From contig OX485804.1 in the NCBI GenBank assembly GCA_950295325.1, positions 55,366,001 to 55,430,000 of the forward strand: a stretch of 64,000 bases of DNA, read 5' to 3'. The position numbers and the translations under genes were made by a program. This stretch comes from Polytrichum commune (taxonomy: Eukaryota; Streptophyta; Polytrichopsida; Polytrichales; Polytrichaceae). This document shows positions 3,001 through 59,100 of the stretch, piece by piece (the stretch's first letter is position 1; every line of letters begins with the position of its first letter). The notes below the pieces were generated by a model. It had not been told where the DNA came from, searched no databases, and worked only from the letters and a program-made list of their open reading frames with translations.

Positions 3001-3456
3001 ATCATCATCATCATCCTTAGCAACCCTAATCGCATCATCATCATCATTATCATTAGCGACCTCCTCTGCCCCATCCGACCTTCTACTCTCTACATCGCAA
3101 TCCAATTCATCCGCATCCCCACCGCCATTCTCCAATTCCACCAACGCGAGCTCCAAACCCTTCTCATCCGCCAATCCTTCACCTCCAATCTCGCCATTCA
3201 CACCAAAATTCTTCTCGTCTCCTATTTGCACCTGCGGCACCCCGACACTTCCCGCCACTCGCTCGTCATCATCGTCATCATCCTCATCGCCATCCTCCTC
3301 GCCATTATCATCGTCGTCGTCACCGGGATCTGCGTCATTCAGAATTTCATCCAGGCTGCGCTCGAGCTCGAGCACGTCGATGTCGATGTCATCGTCATCG
3401 CTGCTCTGCGCGTCCAGGAGCGCGTCCAGGTCGAAATCCCCGTCGGAAGAATGCAT
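1..3456 (-). CDS. VPS8: Vacuolar protein sorting 8 (VPS8), 5' part, partial
   Basis: VPS8 is a CORVET tethering subunit that acts in Rab5-dependent endosomal fusion. Four exons are visible on the minus strand: 3456-1510, 1088-777, 489-211 and 54-1. The gene runs off the window. Each junction has GT/AG and phase 0. Exon 1 (649 codons) encodes a long acidic, low-complexity N-terminus with an Asp run coded by a (GAT)n tract near 2985-3045, then a segment beginning the beta-propeller (AVHANFIAVGLSKG). Exon 2 encodes WD40-like blades (TSLCFNQQGDLLLVGYANG, LCLWDV, HTLFLGQD), which match plant VPS8 closely. Exon 3 has a Gly/Val-rich loop and VVFVTHQTVLVV. I chose the start at 3456 (MHSSDGDFDLDALL) because it opens the acidic leader. 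An in-frame ATG at 3477 is possible. The family assignment is firm; the N-terminal half is poorly conserved and rests on continuity with the propeller. Confidence 0.88.
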
Positions 3457-3861
3457 TGTGCACAGATACAGATACAAATACGAATCCTCTCACTCTTAAA
3501 AATGCCACCATGAGGCGAGCATCCCATTCTTGCTCATCCGAGTGCTATGCGAGCAAACCCTAATCAGTGCCCGGCTTGGCTTCTCGCTGCTCTTGTATGA
3601 ATGATGAGCGACTGCGCGTCCTTGCCAAGGACACAGGCGTCGCTACGTTACTGAGTCGGAGCCTCCGTGAGGTTTTGATGGTCTTCCTGACATTCATCGT
3701 AGAGAAGCCCCAGGCTTATTGTCGCGCTCCTAGAATAGGTAGGTAGGGGTGGCCTCTAGTATTATAAATTATAATGAATAATTGTTAGGTCGACCATGTA
3801 GTTTACGTGGTCAAATGACATGTCAAAATTTGATTTTCATCGCACACATGAAGAGGAGTAA

Positions 3862-35167: not shown

Positions 35168-36479
35168 TTAAGTATAGTTTTGTAGATTATTGAGAGGTTG
35201 CTTATTTTCAATCCGTCTTTTGTGGATTAGTATTGAGTGTGCGTATTGTATGGCGATTATGTTGATTTGTTGAAATGTATGCCGAATTTGTGATGTGGGA
35301 AGTTTGAGTTGTGTTTCTAGTGCCTTCATTGAGGGGATATGAGTTGTGGCTCTAGCGCCGGATGCTAGTACTATGAATGGGGCAACCTTCCAGCCCTTCG
35401 TAGTGAGGGTGTTAATAAGTGGTTGATATTTCATGGTTTTTCTTTCTAGTGTTTCGGCCGAGAACCTATCATTACAATATGTGAATTCGATGTATTGTAT
35501 TGTGACTTCTTGTGTGGGTGCTTCTGGGGGGGGGGGAATTGTATGGATGACTGATGACACATAATATGTTGGGTTTGAGCCGAGCATTGCAATGACATCT
35601 TTGGGTGTTGCATGTGCATGGTAATAGCCATGTAGGTACTGTATTGTCTTGTGGAGAATCGTTGTGTGTTCCTGCGTTCATAAGTGTATAATATCTGGTA
35701 AGTTTGTTTGAGATGAGAAGTTTACGAATTTCCCATACCGCTTTGTTATGTCTATTTGTGATTAGTGCGTGGATGTGTTGTTGTTTACATTTAAGGAGTA
35801 CATGTAACCATGTATCTGCTTCCGGGGAGTTACAGATAGGGCATGTGTGGGATGGGTATGCGGTTCTACCAAAGAAGAGTTGTTTCCTGGCATGGCCCAT
35901 ATATTGACCAGTTCTAAATTTTACTAGGCATGTTTTTTGTTTATCGGTGATAACCGGGTTGTTCCAAAAAGCATTTGATAATGGTTTGTCAATGTCTTTG
36001 TTGTCAAGCCATTTGTGTAATTGGTGCGTTTGGGATGCCATAATTGTTAGGTTGTGTTTTTTGTCGTGCTTAAGTATGTATTGTCCAAGGTGTCGTATGG
36101 GACCTTTATCAGGTGTGTCTTGCATTGAGTGCCACCATTGTTTGTGGAGATAATATGGAGTGGGGTGTGCATGTTCGTGTGTTACTAGTGCATCTCTATG
36201 TGCTAGTTCACATCCCATTTTGGCTAATTTATCCGCTTGCTCGTTGCCACTAATATTCGTGTGGGCTTTGACTTTATGAAGTGTGGTGGTTTGTGTGCGG
36301 TCTTGTAACATTTTAACTATAGATTCGAGTATTTTCTTGTCTGGGTGACTATTATGTACGGTTGGGTGTTTTATTTGTGTGTTGATGAGATATAAAACAT
36401 TGAGACAATCTGTGAAAATATGTGCGGGTTCATGATGATATGTGGTAGTAAGGAGGCGGAGGGTGTGGTGTATAGCCAT
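35168..36479 (-). pseudogene. LINE RNase H C-terminal half, zinc knuckle and tail
   Basis: The frame from 36479 holds the rest of RNase HI: AELMAIHHTLRL-type helix, IFTDCLNVLYLI with the second catalytic Asp, and KVKAHTNISGNEQADKLA. It is followed by CPICNSPEADTWLHVLLKC, a CCHC-like motif usual at the C-terminus of RNase-H LINEs. The first catalytic motif (YYTDGSF) lies in the previous frame near 36650, so a frameshift at the G run about 36609-36615 splits the domain. A second frame change at a G run (about 35525-35535) separates the tail ending at 35168. Confidence 0.75.
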
Positions 36480-36490
36480 GAGTTCTGCTC

Positions 36491-38863: not shown

Positions 38864-39843
38864 TGTAGTGATGGAACTAAATTGATGCCTAGGTAGACAT
38901 ATGGTTCGTGTTGGCTTAGGGTAGGGATGGGTTGGTCCCGGAAATTGATATTAGCGTTTTCGAGGTGTGTTTTGAAGGCTTGGGGATTTAGTTTCGATTT
39001 GTTAGGGCATCCGGTGACGGCACATTTTGGGATGCCAAGGTCCATTCCTGCCCATTCGCAATATTTGTTGAGTTTGTTTAGTTGGAGTTGGAGAGAGGTT
39101 AGGTTGTTGGATATTGCGGCTAGGTCATCGGCGTAGGCTGCAGAGCTTAGTTTAGTATTGGAGGTAGTAAGGGTGTAGCCGTTATTTCCCCTTTGTAACC
39201 ACCTAAGAAGTGGTTCAAGGAAGATGATAAAAATGTACGGGCTTAATGTATCTCCTTGTATAGTTCCTCTTTGTATGGGTATAGGTTGAGTTTTACCAAA
39301 ATGTTCGCCGGTAAATGTAGTAGTGGATTGTGCGTAAATATTGCCTATTAGGGCCACCGCGTCTTGTGGGTATCCTAGGTCTTTCATAATAGCAAGAAGT
39401 CTAGCGTGGTCAATAGATCCAAATGCATTTTTAAAGTCAATGTATAGGATGTAGATGTCTTGGTTGGTGAATCGTGCATCTTCTAAAGCGGCGATTATAG
39501 TTTGTAGTTGTCGTGCAGTGCATCTTTCGGCTCGAAAGCCCTCTTGACTGTCATGTAGGATTTGGTATTTTTCTCCGTATGCGGAACGGATGCTTGTAAG
39601 TGTACTAGTGAATAGTTTATAAATTGTATTAGCGAGGGCTATGGGTCTATGGTTGGTAAGGTTGTGGGGGTTTCCCTTTTTGTATAGAAGTATTATGAGA
39701 CTTGTTTTCCAAGATTCGGGGATTTGTTTTTGCTTATAACAATGCTTAAAAAATAATAGAAGCAATTTGTGGAATCTTGGTGGCATGCTTTTCAATATGA
39801 CTTTGGGTATTTTATCAAGTCCTGGGGATTTTCCATTGGCCAA
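38806..39843 (-). CDS. LINE reverse transcriptase core
   Basis: The 345-codon frame contains non-LTR RT motifs in order: SPGLDKIP (block 0/1), IPESWKTSLIILLYKKG, NHRPIALANTIYKLF, an LYIDFKNAFGSIDH block with catalytic Asp (about residues 136-145), GTIQGDTLSPYIFIIFLEPLL and AAYADDLAAI (YADD at 237-240). All three catalytic Asp residues are present. It overlaps the next frame by 58 bp at a frame change. Upstream (39850-40440) the link to the endonuclease continues in broken frames. Confidence 0.9.
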   Translation of the reverse strand: MANGKSPGLDKIPKVILKSMPPRFHKLLLLFFKHCYKQKQIPESWKTSLIILLYKKGNPHNLTNHRPIALANTIYKLFTSTLTSIRSAYGEKYQILHDSQEGFRAERCTARQLQTIIAALEDARFTNQDIYILYIDFKNAFGSIDHARLLAIMKDLGYPQDAVALIGNIYAQSTTTFTGEHFGKTQPIPIQRGTIQGDTLSPYIFIIFLEPLLRWLQRGNNGYTLTTSNTKLSSAAYADDLAAISNNLTSLQLQLNKLNKYCEWAGMDLGIPKCAVTGCPNKSKLNPQAFKTHLENANINFRDQPIPTLSQHEPYVYLGINLVPSLQWKIQTHITTTKLAQQCNY

Positions 39844-40443
39844 ATTTTTGAGGCATATGTTATATGTCTCTTGATCTAGATATGTATGTAAGGGAATTAG
39901 CGCGTCCCCTCTTTTTTCAATGGTGTATCCATTTAAGTCGTGCCACGGGTATTGTCTAACGCCGCATATGCATTGTGGTGTGTGGTCGGGTTGATAGTAA
40001 CATGTTGGAACGGTGGATCTATTACTAGTTGATTGCTGGACGTGTATTTCTTGTGCGATATCTTTCGGGTTTGTGAGGATGTTGTTATATCTATCGATGA
40101 GACAGTCGAGTGAGGGGGTGTCATTACTCTTGAAAATTTTTCTGTTTATTGTCTTGGGGCTCTTATCGTAGAGTTGTTGGTATTTGGATATGGTTTTTTT
40201 GATTTGTGTGTTAGTATAATCACTCGTAATTTTTCGGGCTTTGTGTTTAGCTTCTTTTGCTATTGTGGCTAGTGTGGCGATCCATGAGTTGTATTCTAGT
40301 GAGGGATCGGGTGGTGGGGGTAAAGTAGTGTGGGAGTGGTTGATTAATTCGTGAGTGACAATAGGATGGGTGCGCCAATTCGGGTTGTTTTTTATGATAT
40401 ATATTATCTTACGGATTAGGTGGTAGGTCGATAGGTTTAGTTT

Positions 40444-41859
40444 CTAGTGTTTTTGGGATTTCTTTGGTAGGTATCCTCCTTGTTTAGTGATATGGTTTAG
40501 GAGTATGGATATTGGTGGGACGCTACATGTTTCGAGGACGGTGGTAGTGATGTTGTCAGTGAGTGTGTCAAATGAGTTGTAAGCTAGTTGCCATTGTTCG
40601 CTTGTCAATTGGTTATTTTGTAAGAGTTGTGTAAGTTCGTTTATTTGGTTGGAGTTTCTTTCAAAATATTTTGTGTGGAATTCGTCGAGGTTCTCTTTTG
40701 GTATGGGGTTGAGTATCCTAGGTGGGGGTTCGGAAGTTGTAAGTGGGTCTTTGGCAATGAGTATGTGTGGGGGGATTTGTAAATGTATGGGAAGGTGGTC
40801 GGAATTTAATTTAATATTTTGGTTTGTAGTGGAGGTGTATTGGTTGTTGTTGGGGGTTTTGATGAAGAAGCCGTCAATTAAACTATTTTGTGTGTAGTTG
40901 TGTTCTCCTTGTCTTGAGAATGTGGTATTTGTGGAGATGTAGGATAATTCTAGGCCGGTTGTGAATGAGCGCCACATATGATCCTCCGGTTGTGGAGGTG
41001 TTGTTTGTAGGTCGTTTTGCCTTCCAATTAGGGCGATGTCCCTATTAAAGTCGCCACATAATATGTATGTGTGATTAGGGTGTAGGCGTATTTGATTAGT
41101 TATGGTATCTTGTATGATAGGGATGAGAGGTATGAGAGGTATGTCTTCCTCATGTGAGGGCATGTACATATTGATTAAAAGCCAAGGTTGTAAGGGTTGG
41201 TTTGCTATGCGGGTTATTTGAAGGAACGGAGATATCTCTGCGGGTGTAGGGATTTTGGCAAGGTTACTTGAGAATGCATGTTTTTTGTGGACTAGTAGTA
41301 GTAAGCCACCTCTATAACCTATGTAGGTCATTCTTTGGCGTGTGACCCGTGTGATGGTGTGCGTGTTATTAAAGAAAAGTTTGTAATATGGGAATAATCT
41401 TTGGATATGCTTTGTGGATTTAGTGGCGGATAGTTTAGTTTCTTGTATGGTGATAATGGAGGGGGGTTTTGGGGGGTTTGTAATTAAGTCTTGTAGGCAT
41501 GGCATGGCGGTGTTAAGAGATGAGGCATTCCATGTTATAGCATATGTTTCTTGACTTGTTAGTGGGATTGGTTTATTTGGGGATGATGGGTTTTGTATCG
41601 GTGGGGGGTTAGAATGTATGTATTCATTTATGGGTTCGTTATATCTTAATGCTTCTATGAGGAGTTGCCTTGGTAGATATGGGAATACTTCACTTATGTT
41701 TTGGATGTTAAGTGTATTGGGGTTGAGGTGTATATAGTCATATAGTTTTTTGTGTATTGTGTTGGGAGGGGTGATAATGTCTTTGTATATGTTATGAAAT
41801 TGTATGTATGGATGCGGGGTGTCTATGTGTCTTTCTGGGGGATTGGGAAGTGTTGTCAT
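40444..41859 (-). CDS. LINE APE-type endonuclease
   Basis: The 471-codon frame encodes an exonuclease/endonuclease/phosphatase domain at about residues 105-350. It shows TWNASSL, IITIQETKLS (metal-binding Glu), LLINMYMPS, ILCGDFNRDI, SLIDGFFI and LNSDHLPIHL with the catalytic SDH. The nuclease nicks target DNA to prime reverse transcription. All key residues are present. It is preceded by the 2A-bearing region and followed by RT. Confidence 0.9.
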   Translation of the reverse strand: MTTLPNPPERHIDTPHPYIQFHNIYKDIITPPNTIHKKLYDYIHLNPNTLNIQNISEVFPYLPRQLLIEALRYNEPINEYIHSNPPPIQNPSSPNKPIPLTSQETYAITWNASSLNTAMPCLQDLITNPPKPPSIITIQETKLSATKSTKHIQRLFPYYKLFFNNTHTITRVTRQRMTYIGYRGGLLLLVHKKHAFSSNLAKIPTPAEISPFLQITRIANQPLQPWLLINMYMPSHEEDIPLIPLIPIIQDTITNQIRLHPNHTYILCGDFNRDIALIGRQNDLQTTPPQPEDHMWRSFTTGLELSYISTNTTFSRQGEHNYTQNSLIDGFFIKTPNNNQYTSTTNQNIKLNSDHLPIHLQIPPHILIAKDPLTTSEPPPRILNPIPKENLDEFHTKYFERNSNQINELTQLLQNNQLTSEQWQLAYNSFDTLTDNITTTVLETCSVPPISILLNHITKQGGYLPKKSQKH

Positions 41860-41935
41860 TTTGTCTAGTAGCTGTGATGTCCAGTCTTGTGGAGGTGGTT
41901 GTTGTAGATATGTGTTGCATATGTCCGTTGAGGGG

Positions 41936-43071
41936 CTAATCGTTACAACTAATGCGTAGATGATTCGTGGGGGGGGGGGGGTGATCTATGTGTTGTTGTA
42001 TGTAATTGTGTAGGTGTGGGAGTGAAAGTATTGTTTGTGCATGTAAGTGTTGTGTGGCTTGAAAAAAAGGTTGGAATGTTTTGGCTAGATGTTGGTATTC
42101 GGGTTGAAATTTGATCGTACTTGGTAGGAAGTATGTATTTTGTCGCCTTTTGTGGGCGGTGGGGTGTGTTCGTGTGAGGTTAGGCATAGGGCCTGGATTA
42201 GGGTGGATATCACCACATTGAAGTATAAGTAGTTGTTGTTGAGTGTGGGGTTTGAATATGATGTTTAATTGTGGTTTCTTATTGGATATGTGTGTAACGG
42301 GTTTAGGTTGGTTCGTGTGTAGTGGGGAAAAGTTTGGTGGTGTATTCATGTTGCTTGTGTCTTTGGATGTATTTGGAGTATTGCTAGGTTGTAAAAGGTT
42401 AAGGGTATGGTTTGGGGGTATAGGTGTATGTTGGTTAAGGTATTGTTCAAATAGATTTTTAAAGTGTGCGTAGAGGATGAGTATGTTGTGTGTGAGGGAT
42501 TGTTTTTTTTGTTTTGGGTGTATTCTATTGTATGGTTGTTAGGGATGTGTATTTGAGGGCCCGGGTTCGTTTGGATATCGCCTCCTAAGAGGATGATTAT
42601 AGAGTTGTTCCATACGTAGTATTGGAAGGCTTTGCTTTTGGGGTTTTTTAGATTTATGTGGGTTATGTATCGGAAGTTGCCTATATATGTTGTGGTGATG
42701 AGGGGTGGAATTAGAATTTTGGGTTGTTCTAGTGGTAAGGGTGGGGAGTTGTTTATTGTGTTGTACATGTTGTTAGGGGGGTTTTGATGGGAGGTGATGG
42801 AGGCTTTGTGGTGTGAGTGAGTTATGCTATTTGGGCGTATTGTTACATTTGGTGTGTAATGTGAAGTTGTGAGGTTGTAATGGCCATATGTGATTGATAT
42901 AATGCATGTAGCAATGAAAGTGGTGGAAATGTTTTGGGTGTATGTGCCCTTTTTATTTATAAGTAGGAGAATACATAGAATATGTGTGAGTATCGTCCAT
43001 GTATGTACTAATGGTGTGCTATTCATGGGGGTGGTTTGGGCCTTTGTGGTAGCTTGATGGGGGATTCCCAT
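41936..43071 (-). CDS. LINE N-terminal region with two 2A-type motifs
   Basis: Two overlapping frames (43071-42346 and 42349-41936) encode Thr/Asn/His-rich sequence. Each holds a D-I-x-x-N-P-G-P motif preceded by a leucine-rich stretch: GDIQTNPGP at 42556-42582 and GDIHPNPGP at 42188-42214. 2A peptides release the upstream product without a stop codon, so the region may yield two or three separate proteins ahead of the endonuclease. A frame change between the two frames and a G run at about 41969-41980 may reflect decay. Confidence 0.7.
42188..42214 (-). other. 2A-type motif, second
   Basis: GDIHPNPGP after LLILQC. It matches the core D-[VI]-x-x-N-P-G-P. Confidence 0.8.
42556..42582 (-). other. 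2A-type motif, first
   Basis: GDIQTNPGP after IIILLG. It is the counterpart of GDIQPNPGP at 8282-8308 in the older copy, or of the second motif. Two motifs 368 bp apart in one LINE are unusual. Confidence 0.8.
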
Positions 43072-43232
43072 AGTGGGTGTTGTGGAAGCCCGGGGGTGCT
43101 AGATGATCGGCGTTGGTGATGTCCATGGAGGTGCTTGGTGCGGAGGGGAGGCGTGCAACATTGGTGTTGGGGGGGGTCCGGCAAGGTGGCGGCGAGCGTT
43201 TGCATTATGTTGTGAATGCGGTGATTCGATTG

Positions 43233-44159
43233 TTAAAACTCCATGGCCATGGCGCTCATGATGCTATGGATGTTAGTTGCATGGGTCTTGAGCGTGTCGG
43301 TGGAGGCCTCAATACGCATGTCCGTATTGAGGTTAATATTGTGGGTAAGGGTGGTAAGCTTGTCGTCCATGGACTCGGTAAGTTCCTTTAAGGCTTTGGT
43401 GAAGAGCTTTTCGGATACAAGTGGGGAAGAGGCGGCGGTGTTGTGCATCGCTTGGACTTTTTGGGCTATGACCTCCCGGACGGGTGCGTGAGCGAGTCTA
43501 ATGGCGGTCAGGTTAGGTTCGGTACCATCGATGCTTCCTTTGTGTGGGACAAAATCCACCCGCCTTCCAAGTATGTACGTGGACTTATTGCTCCATTCCG
43601 TGTACACTGCCGCATTGAGGCATTGGATATGGCACCGCCCGGATTGGCGATCATCCCCTTGGTTGGTTTGGTAACCAAATGTGATTCCGGTGACGTTTTC
43701 CGCTCCAAAAAGTCACTTGAGGGATTTGGTAATTGCGGATTGAGATTCACGTTGGGGTAGATTACTCGCAACGAGGGTGGTGCTAATCTTAAGCTCCGAA
43801 GGGTTGCCCACGGCCTTGTCTTTGGTGAGGCTTACTTTGAGTTGCTCCGAATGGTAAGTAATGCCGTTGTTGAGAAGGTCGGTTTTTGTCTCTTCGGTGG
43901 TGAGCGTAATGAAGGCGAAATCGCGATCAAAGTCGGCTTTGGTGAGGGATAGGATCTCCACCTCCCGTCCATCATAGTAAAAGTCGCGCATGAGAGTTTG
44001 AAGAATGTCGACGGCCGAGTTATTTCGAAGGGCTTCACCTTTGAGGTGGAGTCGCATGTTTTTTGCTTTGGTGACTAGCTCAAAACCTTTCTCCACCTTA
44101 CCAATAATGGTTTCGCCGTCACCCATTGTCATGACGAATGCTCTCTCTCCTCTAAGCAA
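43233..44159 (-). CDS. LINE small ORF(s), unknown nucleic-acid-binding-type fold
   Basis: The frames at 44159-43713 and 43607-43233 follow ORF1 directly. The first, with FAFITLTTEETKTDLLNNG, has the mixed alpha/beta texture of the RNA-binding domain of many LINE ORF1 proteins. The second, with YTEWSNKSTYILGRRVDFVPHKG, ends in a helical coiled-coil-like tail. Both have clear counterparts in the older copy (about 6585-7454), so both are coding in origin. They share a frame but a stop and intervening frame change separate them here. Neither has an assigned function. Confidence 0.55.
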
Positions 44160-47100
44160 GGCTTAGTCCGTCGCGCATCGGGTTTTGGAGGTGTAGCTTG
44201 ATGAAGCCGGCCCAGTTCCGCGTGACCGTATTGATGCCGATGTCTATGAGGTTGGTGTAGGCGGTGCCGAGTGGCATGTTCATGAGGCGGAGCCTGTCTA
44301 TACATGCGGTCTTGACCTCCTTGCGGTTAAGCGTCTTGTAGTCGCCGTCAAAGCGTATGGTCACATGGAAGCCGTCGGTGAGGCCCGTATTGGGGGAGGT
44401 CGTCTCGTACATAGGGATTTGTGTGAAATGTAAGTGTTGCCCAGGCACCGCATCCGGTCTCTCGATGGGGAAGAGAGTTTGCTTGGTTCTAGGAAACGCT
44501 CTTCGAAGTGATCGGAACTCACGTACTTCACTTGCGGGAGTGCCCATGTTCGTAAATTCCTCATCCGTGCGCTTTTCCACTAGTAACTTCTTACCAAGTT
44601 GTATGGATAGCGCTTCATGCATGTGGAATCCTAACCACATTTGTCCGAGCATGTCGATGCCTAGGGTGGCGGCACGTTTGGACCTTGAGCTGGATGGTGT
44701 TGATGTGGGCTGGCGTGGGATTGTGGATGTTGCCGTGAAGTCGTCGGCTTTCCTTCTCTTGGTATTTTGGCTCTCCGATGTATTGTCAATTCGTGGGTGG
44801 CGGTGTTGGAGCATTTGTGGTGTGCTCTCGACGATGCGGGCGGATTTTGGTGACGTGGCTTGTGGGACTTGGATTAAGTGACGCTCCAAAGACACTTGGA
44901 TGAAGCTCCCGCCATGCTCTGGGGACACATTCTCGAGTTGGGCGTCCATGTCTAAATCTTCGTCGGCATCGAGCGGATGTTGAGAGCTCCGTTGATGTGA
45001 GGTGGATGTGTGCGGCGGTTGAGCTTGGATTTGTTGTCGGAATGCCGTGTATTGGTCATCCATCCCAGTTGGCGGCTGTAAATGATGAGAGGTGATGTCG
45101 TCCCGTATGCTTGGTGTCGAGGGCGGCCTAGCTCCTATGTAGAGAGTTCCGTCGTTGGTGTTGAGTGCCTGTGTGGCGTTGGTGTGGGGTGACTGTTGTG
45201 TGTCTTGGGTGGCTTTCGGTTGAGAGGGTCGGCCTGGCTGGCTTGGGGCAGTGTGTTGTGTCTGGACTGTCGATGTGTGTGTGCTGTAGTTTACAATGTG
45301 TTGTCTGAGTCTCTGATTGGGCATGCAAGAATGATAATGTGGGGAGAAGGAAGGTTTGCTTACCGTGATGTTGCGGATTGTGCTGCAAGAGGCGTGATGG
45401 TTGGCGTCTGTGGTAGACTTACTGACAGGCGGTGTGGATTGTGCAGGTTGGTGGTTGTGGCCGGGAGACAGCGTGGGGGCAGAGTCTGCGGTGTAGTGGA
45501 GAGGGCAGGACGCTGGCGTCGGAGCTGGAGCAGTGATAGGATGCTGGAGCCGACCCGGGCGGGAGGAGCTGGGCGATCTGGGTGGCGGTGATTGCTGTAA
45601 TAATCTGTTGTGTGTGGATTGTTCTGTGAGGTGCTGCGCTACTCCAGATGAGGGCCGAGTTTGTGGGTTGCCGCGTCTGTAAGATTTGGTGTCTATGTCG
45701 CTGTCGGGGAGGAGAAGAGTTGTGAAGATCCTAGGAATTGAGCAGAGGGGAATTGGTGCGAATGCGGGGATTGAGGGTGACCGAGAGAAGGGAGTGGAGG
45801 GTGTCGGATAGAAGGGGGTGGGGGGTAGGGGAATAGGTGTGAAGATCCTGTGAATTGAGCAGGGGGGAGTGGATGTGAGTGCGGGGAGTGAGGGTGTCGG
45901 ATAGAGGGGAGTGGAGGGTGGGTGAATGTGCGCTAAGGGGCAGGGCTGAGCTGGATTAAATAGTTTGAGGCGAAGGCAAGATTGGGTGGTGCTGTGAGGA
46001 TGATTGTGGGAATTAGCAGGTTTTGGGCAGGTTGTAGTATTATTTCGGTGTTCCGTGTGTGATGGGCGGTGTCCCGGATGTGTTTGATGCGCCGTGCTTG
46101 GAAGGCGGTGCTCTGGAGTGGCATTGATGTTGTGTGCGTCATGGGTTGGGGGAGTGTTGTGGGGAGATCGTGATTGTTGGTGTAGCGGTGTGCGGTGCTC
46201 TGGAGTTTCTATTGTCATGTGGGCAGTGTGGGTTGTTTGCGTGTTGCAGGGGGGGCGTGTTTTGGGGTGTCGCGGTGTGCGGTGCACTGGAGTTTCTATT
46301 GTTGTGTCTGCGGTGTGGGTTGTGGGTGGGTTGCAGGTGGAGTTTCTATTATGGTAAGCTGTGTGGGTGGTGGTGTGGAGATGGTGGCGTTGGTGCGGCG
46401 GTGCTTTGAAGCAGTGTGTTTGGAGTTTTCCGTAGGTGAGAGGTTCCGCAGTTGGAGTTCCGTGGTGGCATCGAGTCCGGGGGTCTCGTCTGGGTGCGGT
46501 GAGGAGCTTGCAGGGCTCTGAGAGAGCGAGAGGGGTGGATATTGGGAGTGGAAGGCTGAGTGTATGGATGTGGAGGGCGGGAGATGGAGGGGGAGGGTGG
46601 TATGAGTAGTGTGGGGTGAGAAGAGAGAGATGAGTGATGTTAGGTGTGTTGGTGGGTCTGTTATGTAGTGTTGTGTACATTCTAATGTAGGAATCTGTGT
46701 GTGCAGGTCCTCCGACGGTGTGTGTTGTGTGAGTTGTCTGTTGGCTGTTGGTGGGTGTGTGTGGCTTGTGGTGTGAGCAGGCGATGGGAGTGCCGGTGTG
46801 GGGTCGGGGTTTGTGGGGTGAAGCTGCTTTGAACAAGGTTCTTCGGTGGCGACCCCGGCCTGGTGGCTTCTGAGGTAAGGAAAGGGTTGTTTGGGGCGGC
46901 GTGTCGAGTTGGGTTGGGGGTGTTGTCACGGTATGCGGCGTCGACGGCCGCACCTTATCCGTTGGGTTTCATCCATCTAGATTTGGATGGATGAATCTAG
47001 ATGTGGAGAGGAAGGCTCCTAAGTGAGGAGCCTCCTCCTTGGCTTGGCATTCTTGCCAAGTCAAGTCTTGTGAGTTAGTGTGTGGGGAGAGCTTGTGTGA

Positions 47101-50100
47101 GGTGTAGATTGCATGATTTTGCAATAAATCTTGAGTTCTTCTCCCCCTATTTACACTCTTGGATTCTCCCTTGGTGGAGTGAGAGATAGCTTGACTAATT
47201 GTGTGCATTTAAAGAGAGATTTAGAGTTATTGTGAGTGTTCTACTCTCTTCCTTCTCACTTGGCAAGAATGTGCTTGATTTCTTCTCTTTTCTTCAAATC
47301 TTGAGCTCCAACACTCAAGAAAGAGTGTGAGGACAAGTGGTTGCGAAATTTTGGAGCGGAGGAAGACAAACATTGCGGATTCGCGGAGAAACAAGGAGGA
47401 AAAATGTGTGCTTATGACGTGTTCACATCATTTTAAATTGTGGTGAGAATTTTTTGAATTTCCCACGGAATTTTGTACCATTTGGTTGCTCACAAGCATG
47501 AATTTGTGAAGTGGGAAGTGTACAAGCATTTGTGATCTTCAAATGGATCAATTTTTTTCTCAAAAAAAAAAAAAAACAAATTTAAGTGAAGAAGAGGGAG
47601 GCGGCGTGCCTCCCTCCACTGCCTGCTGTTCTGCTGATGGTCTGGTCGGCAGCTGGTCTGCTGTCTGCAGCGGCTGTCCGCGGTTGCCTGCGGCGGCCCG
47701 CTGCCCGACCCGCTGCCTGGCTGCTTGGCTGCCCGGGTATCGGGGAGACTGTTGGGCATAAACGGTCTACGACCTGGCTGCCTCCCTGTCAGCCAGGTAA
47801 CGGGAAGATTTTGGAGCATAACCAATTGAGAACCGGTTAGTCCTTGGTACAGGAAGCGGGAAGGTTTTTAAAACATAACCGGTTGGGACCTTAGTTTTTG
47901 CAAGCCCAATCGGTTGAGACCTTAGTGTTTGTAAGTCCAACCGGTTGTGTATTTTATTTTATTTTTGTTTTAATTGATCAATGCGTTAATGAATTAAAAG
48001 CGGACTTAATTAAATTAAATTAAATTAATTAATTAATTTTGTGTTTTCCTTCAACTTCTCATTTTTCTTTTCTCTCTAAGAGGTCAATTTCTTGTTTTCA
48101 TTAATCATGAACACAAGATAAAACCAAATTTCTTATAAAATATTAAGGTGCTTGGGATTGTTTTTAGGGATCGTGTTGCACGAAATTTCTGAGTGTCATT
48201 GGAAATTGGGTGGCATATGGAATTCCGTTCGGCCTAAAATAAATTATTATTAGGGTCGAATTGTGTTTGTCAACACATATTCCCGGCATTCTTGTGAGGA
48301 GGGATTCTTAGGTTGTAGTGGGAAGATGAGAGATGTGCATAGGTAGCATTTCATTTTCTTAAGCAACAGGGGCTCTTCATTTTGACCACCAACCGCAGGC
48401 GGGTGCCGGTTGGTCGCAGTCGCTTTCAATTTCTGCTTAACTGTTGTTTGGGGAAGAGGATCCAATGCTGAAAATTGCATTGTTTTCTGTCTTTTGTTTT
48501 GGTACCTTCCCCCGTGGCGGGTTGTATTGCTGGCAGTTGTCGGCATTGCCCCATTTTGTGTTGTTATAGATTGTGATAGGGTACTGTAGAGGTGAGGTCG
48601 GATTAATGACCGACGGGACCTTTGTTTGTGCACCAAGTGGGCGGTGCTTGTTTTCACTTGTGGTGAGGCTGGGTTAATGATCAGCAGACCATAAGTTTTG
48701 GTGGTGGTTGCAGGTGCAAGTTGCCTTTGACACTTTTTCTCTTTGTACCTGGATACTAATTCATTTGGGTTGTTGATTCGCTGACCATCCCATTGTGGGT
48801 TTATGGTTACAACTCGTACTCAACACTATCGTTCTCCATCCCCAGGAGCATCGGAAGGTCATCCCTCGGACCTCTTGGACGTTGAACCAGTAGTAGCACC
48901 CAACGAGGCTTTTCAGCCTACTTCGGCGTGGGGGACTATCACTCGGTCTCACGTCCTGTGGGTGCGAATCTTTGACGATATGGAGGAGGAGACTAGGGGA
49001 GGGATACGGGACCGGTTTTCCGGTCGAGCAGGGACCATTTCTCTGCAAGACTGGAAAATCCAGTTTCGTACGTGGATGCGAGAGAAACGCCAACGCAATA
49101 CCAATTTTAACGATTGGTATGCGTTTGAGCTTCTGCCTCAGCATTTGGAGCATAAAGCTCTCTAAACTTATGAGCAGTGGACGGAGGCTCATTGGATGGA
49201 GCTGCGCCAGGTGGAGCGGTACTGGGAGACTCGGGTTGAGTTGGTATCCGCATTGAAGGAAGGCGCAACTTCCAGTTTCATGGCCGTTCCGGATGTCAAG
49301 ACGGAGGTACCGGAGGGAGGTTATGTGGTGGATGTAGAGGGAGCTCCTCCTAGTGAGCCGAGGGCTACGGGTCCTGCTCCCACTGCGGCGAGTACGTCGA
49401 GTCCAATTCTTCCACTCTCGCGTTACGCCATGGCCACCCAAGCGGCTTTAGCCTCTTTAGGGGCTCCGCCAGATTTTGAGCCATTGCGGGCATTTGAGCT
49501 GCATCTACAGGGGGAGTACGAAGGCTTCCGTCGTGACCAGATGCAGCGGATACAAGATTTCAGACGGGAGAAGGACGATACACCTCGTACCATGTATACG
49601 AGGTTGGCGAGGTTTGCCAGAGAATCTGGAGGTGTATTCGCGGAAAGTCAGTTGGTGAAGGTGTTTTTGTCAAAGATTGACAAACGTCTCCTTGACTTGG
49701 CGCTACCCAGGATTATCATGGAGTTTGGTGGTCGAGCGACACTCGCAGAGGCATTCGCTGTGGTGGAGCAGTGTGATCGTGTATTATGTCAGCACGATGC
49801 CACTGATTTGGTGTCCTTGCTAATGGATTCTAGCAAATCCCGAAGAGTTCCGGTTGCGGCTTCGGGATTGGCGGAGGCCGAGGTAGACAAGACCATGTAT
49901 TGTTGGTCTTGTGGGCAGGCCGGCCACGCTAAGAAGGATTGTCCTTCGAAGCAAAGGCAAGCCCAGACCGTCACTACTCCGAAGCGGAAACCATTTGTTC
50001 CCGCTAAGGGCTCGGCGAAGGGGACGACGGGTAATCAGTTACCCAAGCAGTTGAAGTGTTCCCATTGTGGGCGGAACAATCACGCGGTAGAGAACTGCTT

Positions 50101-53100
50101 TGCTCTCCATCCTGAGAAACGTCCTTCTTCCGACCGGGAGAAGACGTTGGAGGCGAAGATTGGAGCCATAGAGGAGAGGTTCAAAAGCTTGGCGTCATCC
50201 GGCCAAATCTTGGCCTCACCGTCCTCCTCCGGAGCTCAGGCTAGTTCTTCTACTCCGGATTACTATATGTTCGGAGCCTCGGGCGAGGTGGTGAGTTCCG
50301 CGGCCGTGACACGTGCTCAAGCCGTGTCACAATCCTTACCTTCGACTACAAATGAATATGTGGCAAGCTCGCGAGCTCGGGACAATGCGCCTGCGGACCA
50401 AATTGGTCAGGCACGACTACCATTATCTTTTGGATTGGCCGATGCCGTCCAATCTGTCAGTGGTCGTCATCCAAACGATGAGGTTTCACATTCAGCGACT
50501 GATGTGGCGCACACGTTGGCATCCAAGGTGTTGCACACACCTTTGTTCACGGCCATGGAGTGGTCATCGCTAGAGTTCCAACCTGCTAAGGTTTTTCACT
50601 TAGCAGGTAGGATTTTGGAAGGGAAGGCATCCTTACCTTCTCTAACCGTGGCTCAAGCCACTATGGACATCCCTGCTTCTGCAGATCCTGAGGATGTGGC
50701 CAAACGGCGAGCGAGACTTGCGGCAGAGACCATTGCGTCTTTTGACGCACACGCCTCAGATGACAAGGCACCGACCACGTCTTATGACTCACCAGTATCC
50801 GCGGGTGCAGCCTATTTGTCTGATGTCGCTGCTAGACCTGTCCGCGAGCGCCGCGGTATTCGACCCGGCGTTGTGTGTATGGTGAATGATACCGGAATTT
50901 TGGTGGTCTGTCGCACTGGGAGCAATGCTACTCGGGTTGCTCCCCGTTGTGTGATGATGGATTCAGGGGCACAGTCAGTTATGATCGGCAAGAGGCTTGC
51001 CCAAGAGTTGAGGTTGACGGCCCAAGATTTGGCTCCCTGTCCATTCACCATTGTCACATCCATTGGTCACGTGGAGCGGGCCATGGGTTATACTCGAGAG
51101 CCATTACAGCTTAGCTTCCGAGTGAAGCCTGGAGATTCACCCGCACCTCTTCTTCTTAGGTGTGCAGTGACGGATGCGACCAACTATGACATTTTAGTTG
51201 GTCAGCAAGCACTTTACCCTCTTGGTTTTGGTTTGGACAACTGGATTGAGGAGGTGTGGATTCGACTAGGTTGGTCGGCAGGGGATGGCCGCAGAGAACT
51301 TATTCCCGTGGCTTTCGCGGCGGCCGCGACCATAGCACCATTGTCTATGGTTTTTGGATGTGGTGCTATGGTGGACACATTGCCTTATGGTTCCGCATTG
51401 TTGGAGGAGTCATTGGCATTCATGGGGAGTACAGACGATCAACGGGATATGACACCTAAGGGTGCATTGGTGCGCCATCCCAAGGATTCCCTTCCTCCTT
51501 GGCGTGATTCCGCCGAGCTATTTCGGAGGTGCGAGGATATTGTTCACTCTCTCACTCCTAGGACACCGGTCATACCGGGTGTCCTCTCGGCATTGGCACA
51601 TCCCATTTTATGGCAGCTGCCAGACGCGGGGATTACTTTGGTGGAACTGTTTGGAGGCATCGGCACAAGCTTAACGGCCGTATTGGAAGCTGGCCTCACG
51701 GTCAGACGGTATGTCTATGTGGACAACTCTCCAGTGTCCACCCGTGTGGCTCGTCACCATCTTCACCAGTTGATGGTATTGTACCCCCAGCAGTTACACC
51801 CAACTGCCATTCATGGGTGTTTTTCACGTCTCCCTCGTGATGTTACACTCATCAGTGAGGCCGACTTACGACACTTGGGCCTGGTGGATATGGTGATTGC
51901 GGGATGGCCATGTCAAGGCCACTCACGTGCTAGAGCAGGCCGAGGTTTAGAGGATCCCAGGTCTAGCCTTTTCTGGGACCTCATCCAGCTTATGCAGTGG
52001 TGGTTTATCCACCAACCTTCCCCTCCAGGGTATATCTTCAAGAATGTACCTTTGTTGGGAGACTCTCGGGACAAGGTGTTGGAAGGCGATTATTATGTTC
52101 GTCAACACCTTGGAGATCCCATTTTTGTGGATGCCGCGAGCATTGGTTCTTATGCCCACCGACCTCGGTGGATTTGGACCAACCTCGCACCGTCATCTAC
52201 TTTAGCTGCAGCATTTTCTGCAGTGCCTCCACCTTTTGATCAAAAGGTGGATGACATCTTGGATCCAAACCGGACTTCTTTGCCGGTTATTCGAGATGAT
52301 TTACCCCCGTTGGCATTAGTCAACAAAATGGGGGCACCACGGCGGGCCTTTCCCACATTTATGACGTTTCCACAGTCATTCGCTTTCCGCGATAGGGGGC
52401 CGGGTATGGTGTGGGATGTTCACACCAAAACCCACACCGAACCATTGGCTGACGAACGGGAACGTGCCATGGGATTCCGCACTGGCACCACCGCAGCTCC
52501 CGGCCTTTCTGAGGGCCAACGACGTTTCGTGTTGGGCCAAGCTATGGATCTTCATACTATGGTGTGGACTGTTGTTTTATGCCTTTCATTGCAAAGGCAT
52601 CGTGGTGACCAGTGGTTGTCTCTGGGGGCAGAGGACTCTGGTCAGGGGGCACAGCGGTCCACACCCATGGAGGAGGGAATTTACGCCATGGTTGGAGAAG
52701 CCGAACGAATTTTTCAATTCGAGCAGCATGTGATGGAGGAGCTTCGAGCTCAACATTTTTACACTGCTTCGGTTTCTTCGCCTCCGGTGGTGGCTTCATC
52801 ATCACATATTGGTGGTGATGAAGAAATGTCAGACTCTAGTACTAGCACCGAGACTGGGGGCATGGTTAATGCCCCCTCCTCTCATTAGCAATTAGAGTCT
52901 GTGCCAGCATTAGGTGGTTCTCCTTTGGTGGAGAGGGAGACTACAGAGTTTGATGATTGGCCACTTGAATTAGGCCCTCGTCTCACTGGTGCTGAGGCAC
53001 GGAAGGTACGAGCATTTATTCGCTCGTACCGTAGATGTTTTGCTTTTAGCCTTCAAGATCTTGAAGGTTATAAAGGAAAACCCATCCACATTCAGTTGGA

Positions 53101-56100
53101 GGACGACCATCCCATTTTTCGGAGACCTTACAGGTTGAGTGTTTCCGAGCGGATTGGCGTTCAGGCTCGTTGCCGAGAGCTCTTGGCAGCAGGGCTAATC
53201 GAACTTTCCAACGGGGAGTATGCTTGTGCTACGGTTATGCCATCGAAGAAGGATATCTTTGGCAATTGGACGGAGAAGCGGATGTGTGGGGATTACCGTC
53301 CAGTTAATCGGAAGACCAAGTCGGATCGATATCCCATGCCAATCCCGGAGGAGTTGTTCGATGTCCTCGGATTTGCTCAAGTCTTTAGCACGTTGGACTT
53401 GAGATCCGGCTATCACCAACTCCCATTACTTGTGGGAGACCGAGTGAAAACCGCATTCTGGGGAGTTGATCAAGATGGGAAGGATCAACTTTACCATTGG
53501 AAGTTTCTTCCATTTGGCCTGAAGAATACACCCGCTGAGTTTCAGCGGGTGATGGATTAGGTTCTCTCGGGCTTGCCCTTTGCTCGGTGTTACATAGACG
53601 ATGTGATCATCTTCAGCACAACACCACAGGAGCATGTGAGGCATCTGCAATCCGTTTTTGAACGGTTGCAGCGGTGGGGATTGCGCTTGCACCACGGCAA
53701 GTGCAAGTTTTTCCATGACCGGTTGGCATATTTGGGGCATATGATTGTTCCAGGAGGTCTTGGGGTATAACAAGCTAAGGTGGACGCATTGCAGAAGATT
53801 CCGGCACCGGTAGATGTGCCGAGACTTCGTGCTTTCTTGGGCTTGGCGAATTACTATCGGCGATTCGTCAAGAACTTTAGCTTGATTGCCAAGCCGCTCA
53901 CCATTTTCACGAGCAAGGACCAACCTTGGACTTGGGGTCGTGAGCAGCAACAGGCATTTGAGACATTGAAGCAGAAACTGGGTACGACTCCAGTGCTTCG
54001 ACGTCCAGATGTCTCCAAATCTTTCCAGTTGCATACAGACTAGAGCTCATTGGGTTTGGGAGCAGTTCTTACTCAGAAAGATGATGTTGGCCGGGAGTAT
54101 GTTGTTGCTTACGCGTCGCGAAGCAACAACACGGCGGAGGCCAATTATTCGTCCTATGAGGGAGAAGCATTGGCGGCGGTGTGGGCTATTGCCCATTTCC
54201 GGCCATATCTTTATGGTCAACACTTTACTTTGGTGACTGACCATCAGCCGTTACGGTGGTTCATGGAGTCGGATAAGCTTACTGGCAAGCTTGCCAGGTG
54301 GGCTTTGTTGCTCCAGGAGTATGACTTTGAGGTGGTACACCGTGTTGGGATTACCAACATGGATGCAGATGGACTCTCACGCAATCCAAGTCCTTCGGAT
54401 GAGGACTTGACCAGGGCCAGGTGGCATGGAGATTGTGATCGAGAGGCGGTTCCAGGTTGGCACGCGGCTGCCTACCTCACTTTATTTTCTGGTGCATCTG
54501 TTGAGATTCCGATACAGGACTCGGATGATGAGACTGATCGGCCTCAAGTTATTGCGGATATATGGGAGGATCATCCCGTATTGCATAAGCTTCAACAGGG
54601 TACCTTTCCTTTGTCTATTTCGGCAATGGAAAGGGATAGGATTGGACATCGAATAACAAGGTTCCGTTGGGAGAACGGTTTGTTATTTCGATTGTGGCCG
54701 GATGGGACAAGGCGTATTGTTCCTAGGCCGGATCAGCGGGCCTCCTTGGTGCGACAAGTGCACGAAGAACTTGGCCATTTTGGCATACGCAGGACACATT
54801 CGATGTTGCGTGGCCAATATTGGTGGACTGGCATGTATCAGCAGGTGGCTGCATATGTCGGGAGGTGTGAAGTTTGTGACCGGGTCAGGTCTAGCTTTAA
54901 CACCTTATCACCTCAATTATAGCCCTTACCTATCATGGAATTAGGCTACCGTTGGTCGCTGGACTTCGCAGGGCCGTTGGTGGTTACACCACGTGGAGCA
55001 AAGTATGTTTTGGTGATGGTGGAGCATTTTAGCAAATGGATTGAGCTTGTTGCTCTATCCCAGAACTCTGCAGAGTTGGCCGCGGCCGCCTTTTTGGATC
55101 GTGTGTTAGCACGTTTTGGAGCACCAGCTGAAGTGTTGACAGACCAAGGGAGGGAGTTCCTTGGTGCTTTTGAGGAGTTGTGCACTAAGGCTCTCATAGA
55201 TCACCGCACCACCTCTCGGGATCATCCAGAGGCAGATGGCTTGGCTGAACGGGTGGTTCAGACAACCAAGCGTGGCTTGAGGAAGTATGGATTACTTCGG
55301 GGAAGCCACCGGGATTGGGACCTTATGTTGCCATGGATTGCTATGGGCTATCGATTTAGTAGGCAGGCCTCTTTGGCATCTTACAGCCCATATCAATTAT
55401 TGTATGGACGTGAGCCTATACTCCCGAGTTCTATTCGGAAAAAACTAGTTCCAGTTGTGAACTTGGATGATCCAGACCTTTGGGCAGAGTGTTTACAGGA
55501 GCGGGCTCAATTCTTCCAGAGGGCCATGCCTATGGCCATGGAGAATTTGTCCATTGCTCAGCACCGTGACACATTGCGTTATGCACGCATTCGTAGTGGT
55601 GCTTACCGACCTCAGTTGCGGAGATTTCGGCAAGGGGATTATGTTTATCTTCAACGTGAGGCGCCTACGACATTGGATGTCAGGACGGGGCGCACTATCC
55701 TTCGGGTGAAGGAGGTGTTGCCGAGTGGTTTGTTATTGTTGGAAGGCAAGGATGGCAGGGAATGTCGCGAGCATTCCAAAAACTGTGCCCCATGTCATCT
55801 ACCTATTAAGGGTACAGTTCATCCTGAACTGGCTGTCGTACCAGAGGGTCTTCCATGTTTTGTGTGTGGAGAGAAGAAAGGAGCGGCTACTATGCTCTTG
55901 TGTGATCAGTGTCAACGCGGTTGGCACATGGCATGCTTGAGGCCACCCTTGACTTCTCTACCATTTGGACAGTGGAGTTGTCCTCGCTGTCGAGGATCTT
56001 CGGTACTTGGTGCTTCCACCAATCGTACTCAATGATCCTGTGTGGTTTTCATCATCTTGTGCCTGTCCAAATGGAAAATGAAGAGTTATAGCATAGAGAC

Positions 56101-59100
56101 GCGATCAACATGAGGCGGTGGATTTAATTCTTTGGGATCTGATGGCCAAACATCAAAGGCGATTAAGGATTGGGCTCACCTTGTACCCAGCCTACAGTTC
56201 CTTAGAATAACGTTTACCACACTAGTTAGTTGCGGAGCAATCTTTCATTATCCATGCCCTTAAGATTGGCATTGGTCCTAGCTGCTTGGCGGGACTCCAT
56301 AGTCAGCTGAGGGGGGGGGGCATGTCGAGGTGTGTTGTTTATGTGTGACTTTGCTATGTTTTAGTGTTGTTTGTTAGTGGTGGTTGGTACTCGAGCTGCA
56401 GTGACACACAATCGCTATTTACACGACAGCTGTCACGGTATGCGGCGTCGACGGCCGCACCTTATCCGTTGGGTTTCATCCATCTAGATTTAGATGGATG
56501 AATCTAGATGTGGAGAGGAAGGCTCCTAAGTGAGGAGCCTCCTCATTGGCTTGGCATTCTTGCCAAGTCAAGTCTTGCGAGTTAGTGTGTGGAGAGAGCT
56601 TGTGTGAGGTGTAGATTGCATGATTTTGCAATAAATCTTGAGTTCTTCTCCCCCTATTTACACTCTTGGATTCTCCCTTGGTGGAGTGAGAGATAGCTTG
56701 ACTAATTGTGTGTATTTGAAGAGAGATTTAGAGCTATTGTGAGTGTTCTACTCTCTTCCTTCTCTATTGTCGATGTGTGTTGTTTATGTGTAACTTGGCT
56801 ATGTTTTAGTGTTGTTTGTTAGTGGTGGTTGGTACTCGAGCTGCAGTGACACACGATCGCTATTTACACGACAGTGTTTTTTTTCGGTTTGGTGTTTTTG
56901 TGTATGCGGTAGGGGTTGTTGGTGTGTGTGGGGCTGGTAGTGGAATGTAGATGGTGGGTTTGTGTTTGTGGGTATGCATTGGTGTGGGCAGTGTATGGGC
57001 GGAGGGGGATGTTGGATGGCTGTGTGGGTGTATTCGGGGTGGTGTAGTTTCTTTGTGGATTGGCGGGGTGGGTTTGAGTGAGGGAGAGGCAGTGCGTTTC
57101 TGGTGTCTGGTGAGCGGTGATTGTTGGCAGGTGGGGTTGTGACTCAGATGGTTGGGGGCCCGTCTGCGGTGCGTGTCGAGCCATGGATAATAGCTGCCGG
57201 TACGTTTGCGTTGTTTTTGTGTGTGCTTTATGTAGTCTGTGTATGGTGTTATGTATTGTGGTCTTTGTGTGGAATATTGTATGGCAGCTTTGTATGAAAA
57301 TGTCGGGTGAATTTGAGTGCCAGTGTGGGGGGGTGTCGCAACCCTTGCTAGCCCCCCTTGACAATCTTGCCAATTTTCAATTCTAGCAAAGGTTACGAGC
57401 GCTAACCATTCGCATTCCGCCATGCTAATGGTTAGCTCCTCCTACCCCGGACCTTATAGTTCATAGGAGGGAACCAACCCTCTTACTTTGCTTTCGGGAC
57501 TCACCCCTTAATCGGTAACTCATTTCTTGGATGTGGACTTCCATCCATGGAAGTCCAATCCTATGTTGATCATCGCGTTGCCGGAGCAACACTACAACAA
57601 CCCGAACCATACTAGGCAACTATGGCCTCACAATGGGCCAATGCCCATGGAGGCCGTGCCGTTCGGCCTCGGGTGGGTGAGGCCACACCACCTCACCCAT
57701 ATAAGCCTCTAGGACTTCACGCGGGGCCCCTACCCCACCGTCAACCAACCTCTTGTCTCTCTACCAAGAGTTGGGGCCAAGTGGACATTTTCCTTTAGCT
57801 GCTGGGCCTAGAACCCCCCCAGCAGCTTCAGACCATCATAACTTCCTTGTATGATGTCTGATCATAACAACCAACCACTCCATGTTCATCTACGCTTCAC
57901 GTAGATGCCGATGGACTCCTCACTTGCTCCATTTGAGCAAGTCTTGAGGAAGTTATGCCTGTTTGAACCTTGGCAGTCCCGGGAATCACTCCCAGGCACT
58001 GCTGTACCAGGGCGCTGTCCCGGGACAGCGCCCCACTCAAATGGCCATAACTCCTAGCTCACACCTCCGATTGAGGTGTTCTTGAGCTTTCTAGAATCAC
58101 CACGCCATGAGCTACGCATAACTCATGGCCTTACCCTTGTGCCTCCTAATCTTCGTGGGTGGGAGGCGTTCCCAACGCCCGGGGCCCTCACCCACACTAG
58201 GATCACTTGGGCCCTCCCACCAACGGCGCCACAAGTCCCGGGTGTCACTCCGGGGTCCCCCTTGTGCCCATGGTGTTTCGGGCACTCCTCATGGAGAGGT
58301 GCGCGACAGGGGGAGAATCCTGTAGAGGAATAGGAGTGTGTGTTAGGGTTATGGAGTACCTTAGTGCGTTGGATGTGGATTCGAATCTGAGGGGTTGCAA
58401 TGCATTCGGTGTAGCTCCTGATCTGCTTGCTTGGTGGGGGGTGTGGATGTGCTTGCTCGACTCAGTGGTGAGGCGTCTGGAGCCCGGGAGGTTTGGCAAT
58501 GCATTCGGTGTAGCTCCGGAGCCGCTTGCGCTGTGGGGGTTGTGGGTGTGGTCGCCCGGCTCGGTGGTGAGGCGGCTGGATCCCGGGAGTGTCCCTGCAA
58601 CGATTTCTGCTGCGCCTGCTCTGTGCGGATCTGGTGGTGAGTAGGGGTGACGGCTGCTCCATGGCGGCGCTCTGGCCCCACGTGGGTTCGGTGGTGATGG
58701 TGGGAGGCGTAGGTAGAGATGTGGTGCGTAGTTGTTGAGGCCAAGGCTTGTAGGGTATATTGGGTTAGGTGAGGGGAACGCTTCCGCGTGGAAGAGGCTA
58801 AGCAGTGTGTATAACACTTTTAAGTTTATGAAGTGAGCGTTGGGAAGCTGGCGCCGTTGGTGACCATAGAATGTTGTGTCGAGTATCTGGGTTGGTGTCG
58901 CTTGGTCTTCTGGTTGTCTCTGGGTTGTGAATCTGGGTTTGTTGGCTACTGTGTATCGCCGGTGCGCGCGCTGCTTGTATTGAGGGTGCCTCTCGGTGGC
59001 GGGTGAGCACTTTGCTTCTCGAGCGTTTCTGCATTGGCGCTGTTCGTCTTGCTTGTGTGCGGGATCTGTGTTTCTGCCGGTACATGTGTGTTCGGCTTCG

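Follow-up and report, generated by a model that had tools for sequence, protein, structure and literature searches.

The 64,000-nucleotide stretch of Polytrichum commune contig OX485804.1 analysed here (the window) contains one complete Ty3-type retrotransposon of approximately 10 kb, at window positions 46924-56873, in which a predicted DNMT3-type C5-cytosine methyltransferase (MT) lies between the protease and the reverse transcriptase (RT). Our main reading, to which we give a rough probability of 0.55, is that this element is one decayed copy of a Ty3-type family, present in multiple copies and related to KnitGypsy-Dnmt3 of Klebsormidium nitens, and that the family works by the mechanism proposed below, in which the MT would act on the element's own complementary DNA (cDNA). 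The identity and anatomy of the element as described here are close to certain. Cytosine methylation is normally deployed against retrotransposons, and this family keeps a methylation-enzyme domain under purifying selection alongside a predicted histone-reader finger; a host with young copies makes self-methylation of the element cDNA testable.

The MT domain (51536..52573, on the plus strand, as are all coding features and repeats of the element) was recognized by Pfam, by PDB profile searches and by its motifs. Within the open frame 49166-52888, DNA_methylase PF00145 matched above the cut-off (E 3.3e-8), over residues 891-964 only. A single-sequence search of the PDB placed DNMT3A at the top (E 8.7e-8), followed by DNMT3B, DRM (2.7e-6) and bacterial enzymes. 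The search was also run with a profile of eight MT sequences, comprising three from P. commune, those of Marchantia, Closterium, K. nitens and Chromochloris, and one further protein. This profile, which supplies the domain search called for by an earlier sequence-only reading of the locus, matched DNMT3A at E 1.3e-23 (87 bits), whereas the best DRM match was 4e-12 (4onj), HhaI scored 7e-8, and DNMT2-type enzymes reached 7e-4 and at most 22 bits; neither DNMT1 nor a chromomethylase was found among 60 PDB chains up to E 1. The Pfam and DNMT3A values led us to reject a chance motif match. An AlphaFold2 model of the MT of a sister copy (L015) had a mean predicted local distance difference test score of 92 and a predicted template modelling score of 0.90.

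Motifs I, IV (PCQ), VI, VIII and X follow one another in that order in a single frame, unpermuted, and together with the closest similarity being to DNMT3 this assigns the segment to the DNMT3 family, on motif order and similarity rather than on a rooted tree with host DNMT3. By sequence, then, the segment is a DNMT3-type C5-methyltransferase. In DRM enzymes the order is permuted, with X before I, which is why the DRM match covered the motif I-IV half only, and a DRM-like permutation of the element's MT was rejected. The sequence-only reading had called the enzyme DNMT3/DRM-like, and its DRM part has to be dropped. The permuted order was seen instead in a host DRM-type methyltransferase exon (G000 C2:4703540-4704190), where motif X stands ahead of motif I; this exon was recovered in a genome search with the DNMT3A sequence (150 scored of 292 candidates), which otherwise returned mostly known element copies and some other places. 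That reading had also described a complete motif set. All five motifs are indeed present in order and in one frame, but FKN stands at motif VI in place of the FEN of relatives and the loop of motif I is also changed, so that the set is complete in outline and not intact.

The MT is the last domain of open reading frame 1 (ORF1, 48803..52888), behind gag, a CCHC zinc knuckle (49898..49948) and an aspartyl protease core with DSGA (50951..51037); the knuckle and protease are weak Pfam matches under the cut-off (E 0.003 and 0.01, respectively). ORF2 follows in-frame and encodes part of the RT (52940..53557, Pfam RVT_1) up to a premature stop, then the Pfam-matched RNase H (54044..54322), integrase H2C2 zinc-binding domain (54728..54892) and integrase core (rve, DDE; 54947..55228), with a PHD finger at the integrase C-terminus (55856..55990; PF00628, E 5e-11). 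The order protease-RT-RNase H-integrase and the DDE integrase are those of Ty3/Gypsy elements. The sequence-only reading of a Ty3-type retrotransposon with a DNMT3-like MT behind the protease and ahead of the RT in the same element was thus borne out by domain order, Pfam and motifs. Although MT and RT are in the same frame, they belong to different ORFs, with the UAG at 52886-52888 between them. The span given in that reading, 48803..52888, holds the methyltransferase frame, but this frame is broken by a premature stop at 49163-49165 and represents only part of the element.

The P. commune genome assembly searched for further copies comprises 64 contigs with a total of 408 Mb; the seven large ones account for approximately 406 Mb. 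First-look candidates, which are not copy counts, numbered 352 for PF00145 (123 scored), 593 for the MT protein (117 scored) and 1384 for the RT (150 scored). Twenty full copies (L009-L028) were drawn from the PF00145 search and hence were chosen for having the MT; all 20 carried CCHC-gag, protease, MT, RT, RNase H and integrase in order, although the gag N-terminus went unmatched in L010, and 19 copies, all but L009, had a match to the PHD finger. A second sample, not chosen for the MT, was taken as every seventh of the 150 RT matches, those most like the window RT. Here the MT lay within 2.6 kb upstream of the RT in 19 of 20 copies and approximately 3.3 kb upstream in the remaining one (L033), giving 20/20. 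The sequence-only reading had depended on other copies having the domain, and the MT proves to be a constant component of the family among the copies with the closest RT. An MT confined to the window copy was accordingly rejected, as was contamination, since the 117 scored MT matches are spread over all seven large contigs. Ten of the 20 full copies, L010 among them, had no stops other than the natural ones in either ORF.

The full copies fall into a window-like subfamily X (seven copies) and a subfamily Y (13 copies). Identity of Y to the window copy is 54-70% in gag, protease and MT and mostly 84-90% from RT to integrase; this contrast of strong divergence in the first half and little in the second could reflect fast evolution of ORF1 or recombination between the subfamilies.

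Catalytic residues were scored from alignments of loci L001-L048 after removal of eight duplicates and L033, leaving 39. The motif IV Cys was present in 38/39 copies (one lacked the region), the motif VI Glu in 38/39 (Lys in L037), each of the two motif VIII Arg residues in 39/39, and the motif I Gly in 36/39 (one Ala, two without the region). Across the eight-member alignment the motif IV Cys-Gln was kept in 8/8 and the motif VI Glu in 7/8, the window being the exception. The ratio of nonsynonymous to synonymous substitution (dN/dS) was estimated by pooled Nei-Gojobori counts from eight X copies (window included) and ten Y copies (L009, L012 and L023 omitted), using only pairs with dS above 0.01. 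For the MT it was 0.24 within X (27/28 pairs) and 0.11 between X and Y (55/80 pairs, with dS near saturation), so that the dN/dS test proposed in the sequence-only reading showed purifying selection in both comparisons. Within Y, where a dS of approximately 0.02 marks the subfamily as young, the MT value was 0.57 (41/45 pairs), compared with 0.22 for RT, 0.23 for integrase and 0.26 for protease. The corresponding X-X and X-Y values were 0.15 and 0.05 for RT, 0.15 and 0.03 for integrase, and 0.31 and 0.13 (8/80 pairs) for protease; gag gave 0.15 within X and 0.33 within Y, and had no usable X-Y pair. The MT is therefore constrained, less tightly than the RT, with a weak signal in the youngest subfamily.

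Residue conservation and the MT dN/dS values within X and between the subfamilies make it probable, with good confidence, that catalysis is what has been selected for. The domain could instead have been retained for a role other than catalysis, such as nucleic-acid binding or shaping of the Gag particle, with methylation incidental, and the Lys at the catalytic Glu in the window and L037 and the Y-Y ratio of the MT would fit this; we consider it improbable, given the Cys, Glu and Arg counts in the other copies and the conservation in the eight-member alignment. That the MT is a passenger under loss is less probable still. In its favour are the dead window copy, the stops that interrupt the MT in many copies, and the Y-Y ratio; against it, the MT is under purifying selection both in X and in the X-Y comparison, it was present in every RT-sampled copy, and relatives with an MT range from liverworts to chlorophytes.

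The boundary between ORF1 and ORF2 bears on how much MT would be made. An ORF1 UAG followed by an in-frame ORF2 was seen in the window, where it reads UAG-CAAUUA (52886..52894), and in 18/20 full copies; L009 and L012 are frame-shifted, which hides the place. The hexamer after the UAG was CAATTA, CAATCA or CAACCA, all CARYYA, and the UAG-CARYYA string occurred in 37/40 loci when searched for without reference to the ORF boundary. UAG-CARYYA is the tobamovirus-type readthrough context. With the MT ahead of such a stop, it would be made with Gag and protease, above the level of RT and integrase. An enzyme packaged in this way would lie beside the genomic RNA, and a DNMT2-like action on RNA, either the element's genomic RNA or its transfer RNA primer, would then be conceivable; this was raised for the long interspersed nuclear element (LINE) type by de Mendoza et al. 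2018 (PMC5890265). We regard RNA as a very unlikely substrate, because the profile gives DNMT3A 87 bits against no more than 22 for the DNMT2 type.

The PHD finger matched fingers of known structure, and the 60 PDB matches shown of 105 included those of CHD4, DPF3, KDM5, ATXR5, UHRF1 and AIRE. Several of the CHD4, ATXR5, KDM5, UHRF1 and AIRE fingers bind histone H3 unmethylated at K4, and from these sequence neighbours we infer the same binding for the element's finger. A C-terminal chromatin reader on a Ty3 integrase is also found in chromoviruses, the chromodomain Ty3 elements, whose reader differs from the PHD finger of this element.

In the mechanism that we propose, the MT would be produced within the abundant Gag-protease product and then packaged, and would methylate newly made double-stranded cDNA, within the particle or the integration complex, before integration, so that a copy would arrive already methylated. 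The PHD finger would bind H3 tails that lack methylation at lysine 4 and hold the integrase there, so that insertions would be directed into silent chromatin, a target of low damage and low counter-selection. Genomic copies would later decay by deamination of methylated cytosines, which is probably the source of the dead window copy. From the overall analysis, we put even odds on the element's own cDNA being the main MT substrate, and from the finger's sequence the chances that it steers insertions appear about equally balanced. The MT could alternatively act in trans on host DNA or chromatin, for instance by saturating or misdirecting host silencing. The location of the MT in ORF1, before the stop, and the many matching places in the genome (the first-look MT and RT candidates above) would suit such an action, and retrotransposon DNMTs have been considered as shaping the host methylome of Symbiodinium, but the methylome of Klebsormidium, which carries such elements, is of the usual plant-like kind (PMC5890265). 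We consider action in trans unlikely.

The decay of the window copy was also examined. Premature stops interrupt its gag, RT, RNase H and integrase frames, and the catalytic Glu of motif VI is replaced by Lys; the copy is dead. Among eight subfamily X copies, 138 substitutions were unique to the window, of which 87 were C-to-T or G-to-A, 22 were the reverse and 29 were transversions. Per available site, C-to-T decay affected 21/772 CG, 20/694 CHG and 46/2626 CHH positions, a pattern consistent with methylation of cytosines in every context and their later deamination. The C-to-T bias varies in other copies, with for example 113/301 in L010 and 11/11 in L015.

Self-methylation of cDNA by the element remains our preferred reading, and several observations weigh against it. 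Decay in the CG, CHG and CHH contexts is equally explained by host enzymes, and the observed/expected CpG ratio of the element (0.74, versus 0.81 to its left and 0.63 to its right) is not clearly lower than that of its flanks. The window and L037 have Lys in place of the catalytic Glu, and constraint on the MT may be looser than on other domains, as the ratio within subfamily Y indicates. Leaky readthrough at the ORF1 UAG is inferred from sequence only. Finally, the DNMT of the Klebsormidium element was inactive in yeast, a result that its authors call inconclusive (PMC5890265).

The ends of the element were found to have an unusual structure. At the left, target-site duplication GTGT (46920..46923) is followed by terminal repeat A (copy 1, 334 bp, beginning TGTCACGG; 46924..47257). 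At the right, a purine tract (56309..56320) stands just 5' of repeat B (copy 1, TGTCG...CGACA, 106 bp; 56323..56428), followed by a GC spacer (56429..56430) within the palindrome GACAGCTGTC at the B/GC/A junction, repeat A copy 2 (56431..56764; seven differences from copy 1), repeat B copy 2 (56768..56873; four differences from copy 1), which is the element's right end, and the second GTGT (56874..56877). The layout is thus A-coding-B-GC-A-B, with A at the left and B-GC-A-B at the right. Two full direct long terminal repeats (LTRs), as in Ty3/Gypsy elements, were not found at the ends, which are non-canonical although the domains are those of Ty3. Both repeat pairs were present within the fetched stretch in six copies (the window, L010, L011, L015, L025 and L023), and B-A-B was seen at the right end of L026 and L028. 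Integrated elements end in TGTCAC...ACGACA, and in subfamily X both ends meet inside the element as ACGACA-GC-TGTCAC, which includes the palindrome GACAGCTGTC; the subfamily Y copies shown likewise have the internal junction ACGACAGC-TGTCACG. Of seven X copies compared at the A2/B2 junction, five were identical, L025 was one base off and the window had three extra bases. Compared stretches of A1 and A2 were identical in 4/14 copies in which the pair was found (in Y, the second A is cut at the stretch end), showing recent movement of the family.

Target duplications were examined in 15 copies, of which L026 and L028 had no left end and L018 no right end; the remaining 12/12, with both ends found, had identical 4-bp duplications, compared with a mean of 1.15/12 matches when the same 4-mers were paired after shuffling. 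Subfamily Y has ACGACA twice, and the outer one was used for this count. In silico deletion of the element and one GTGT restored a 1111-amino-acid open frame across the join, on the minus strand beside LINE frames. A host gene beside a neighbouring element was rejected as an explanation, since a single unit lies between the target duplications. Duplications of 4 bp are the signature of a DDE integrase and not of a tyrosine recombinase, and the rve integrase and the 12/12 duplications exclude the element from DIRS elements, which have a tyrosine recombinase and no target duplication. How the integrase locates the element ends is a separate puzzle posed by the split repeats and 4-bp duplications. 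On one reading of these sequences the canonical LTR would be B-GC-A, and the integrase would cut the internal palindromic B/GC/A site of a two-LTR-circle-like molecule, which would explain split repeats with 4-bp duplications. It is possible, though we think it rather doubtful, that all of these features combine, such that an old green-lineage retrotransposon group would have its own silencing reader (the PHD finger on integrase) and writer (the DNMT3-type enzyme with Gag-protease), would place new copies methylated in H3K4-unmethylated chromatin, and would cut at that internal palindrome. Animal DNMT3 unites the same pair, an ADD domain and a catalytic domain.

Retrotransposon-borne DNMTs were described by de Mendoza et al. 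2018 from dinoflagellate LINE and DIRS elements and, as KnitGypsy-Dnmt3, from K. nitens (PMC5890265). KnitGypsy-Dnmt3 resembles the P. commune element in having a Dnmt3-type MT fused into a Gypsy polyprotein, under purifying selection and intronless, and in its DIRS-like A-coding-B-A-B repeats despite Gypsy domains, a layout also found here (PMC5890265). It differs in host lineage and in having its MT in the Pol ORF, whereas the MT of the P. commune element is in ORF1 before the UAG, and we therefore class the latter as a related variant and not as a KnitGypsy-Dnmt3 member; 'PHD' appears nowhere in the main text, and the available text makes no mention of a target duplication for KnitGypsy-Dnmt3 (PMC5890265). 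SymbioDIRS-Dnmt3 also combines a Dnmt3-type MT with A-coding-B-A-B repeats, but has a tyrosine recombinase in place of the rve core and 4-bp duplications of the P. commune element; DNMT3 domains of the dinoflagellate DIRS type gave de novo CG methylation in yeast (PMC5890265). That paper treats the Gypsy case as acquired independently in a single algal lineage and finds no relationship to the dinoflagellate elements (PMC5890265). A 2025 survey restates the finding for both streptophytes and dinoflagellates, naming the LTR type Copia (PMC12344493), while the available parts of PMC9516144 and PMC8616336 contain nothing on such elements. In the open literature, with subscription journals and preprints largely outside the search, we found neither a land-plant description of a DNMT-bearing retrotransposon nor a description of a PHD finger or target duplications in such an element. 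The novelty is lower than the sequence-only reading claimed, because an element of this kind has already been reported from a charophyte alga (PMC5890265) and the copy in the window is dead; deposited proteins of Marchantia, Calypogeia, Sphagnum and Closterium also carry the domain. The anatomy is richer than that reading claimed, with the leaky-type stop, the PHD finger and the split repeats with 4-bp duplications.

Relatives were recovered from other lineages. The MT protein search returned 65 proteins, with Marchantia polymorpha, Calypogeia fissa, Sphagnum fallax and Closterium as named sources, and the pol search returned 802 proteins among 8000 candidates scored, with K. nitens, Riccia, Haematococcus, Tetrabaena and Chromochloris among the 120 listed. 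Of 181 proteins in these sets, 101 matched the MT profile. In 25 of the 101 the MT lay ahead of the RT (one, without RT, had it ahead of RNase H), in 36 it followed RNase H, and the remaining 40 were without the parts needed to place it. In trees of 45 proteins with both domains, the two domain orders separated, with support of 0.97 in the MT tree and only 0.56 in the RT tree, and MT and RT pairwise distances had a correlation of 0.64. The apparent tree exception, P0160, is a record without a matched RT whose order RNase H-MT-integrase fits the other group. These trees, which are without an outgroup, suggest either one old capture that later moved or two captures.

K. nitens protein P0108 has the order protease-MT-RT-RNase H-integrase (protease by eye) and is 47% identical to the element over 944 aligned pol positions and 43% over 250 MT positions; it is probably a copy of KnitGypsy-Dnmt3. 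A PHD finger is present in K. nitens P0133, a member of the same pol family. Protein P0181, labelled Chrzof1, which we take to be Chromochloris zofingiensis, is a chlorophyte protein with a related RNase H, a DDE integrase with PHD finger and a DNMT3-type MT with the same motif order, but its MT lies between RNase H and integrase and is followed by a G-patch domain. P0042 likewise has its MT behind RNase H and a G-patch domain between MT and integrase. Behind the PHD finger, the C-termini of P0042 and P0038 have a class I amino-methyltransferase-like stretch by eye, clearest in P0042, with no Pfam match.

The element is inserted in a long minus-strand LINE frame, probably ORF1, without a Pfam match; the LINE occupies 35472-46919 and 56878-57441. 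By frame content, its other minus-strand parts are an endonuclease (40447-41985), an RT (38809-40443) and an RNase H (35475-36596), together with a PCIF1_WW domain (36494-38950; PF12237, E 3.6e-10). The PCIF1_WW family includes an RNA adenine methyltransferase, and two different retrotransposons at this locus thus carry methyltransferase-related domains. Elsewhere in the window, a 665-amino-acid frame at 1495-3489 on the minus strand, with a VPS8 beta-propeller match near its end just under the curated cut-off, is perhaps a host gene exon.

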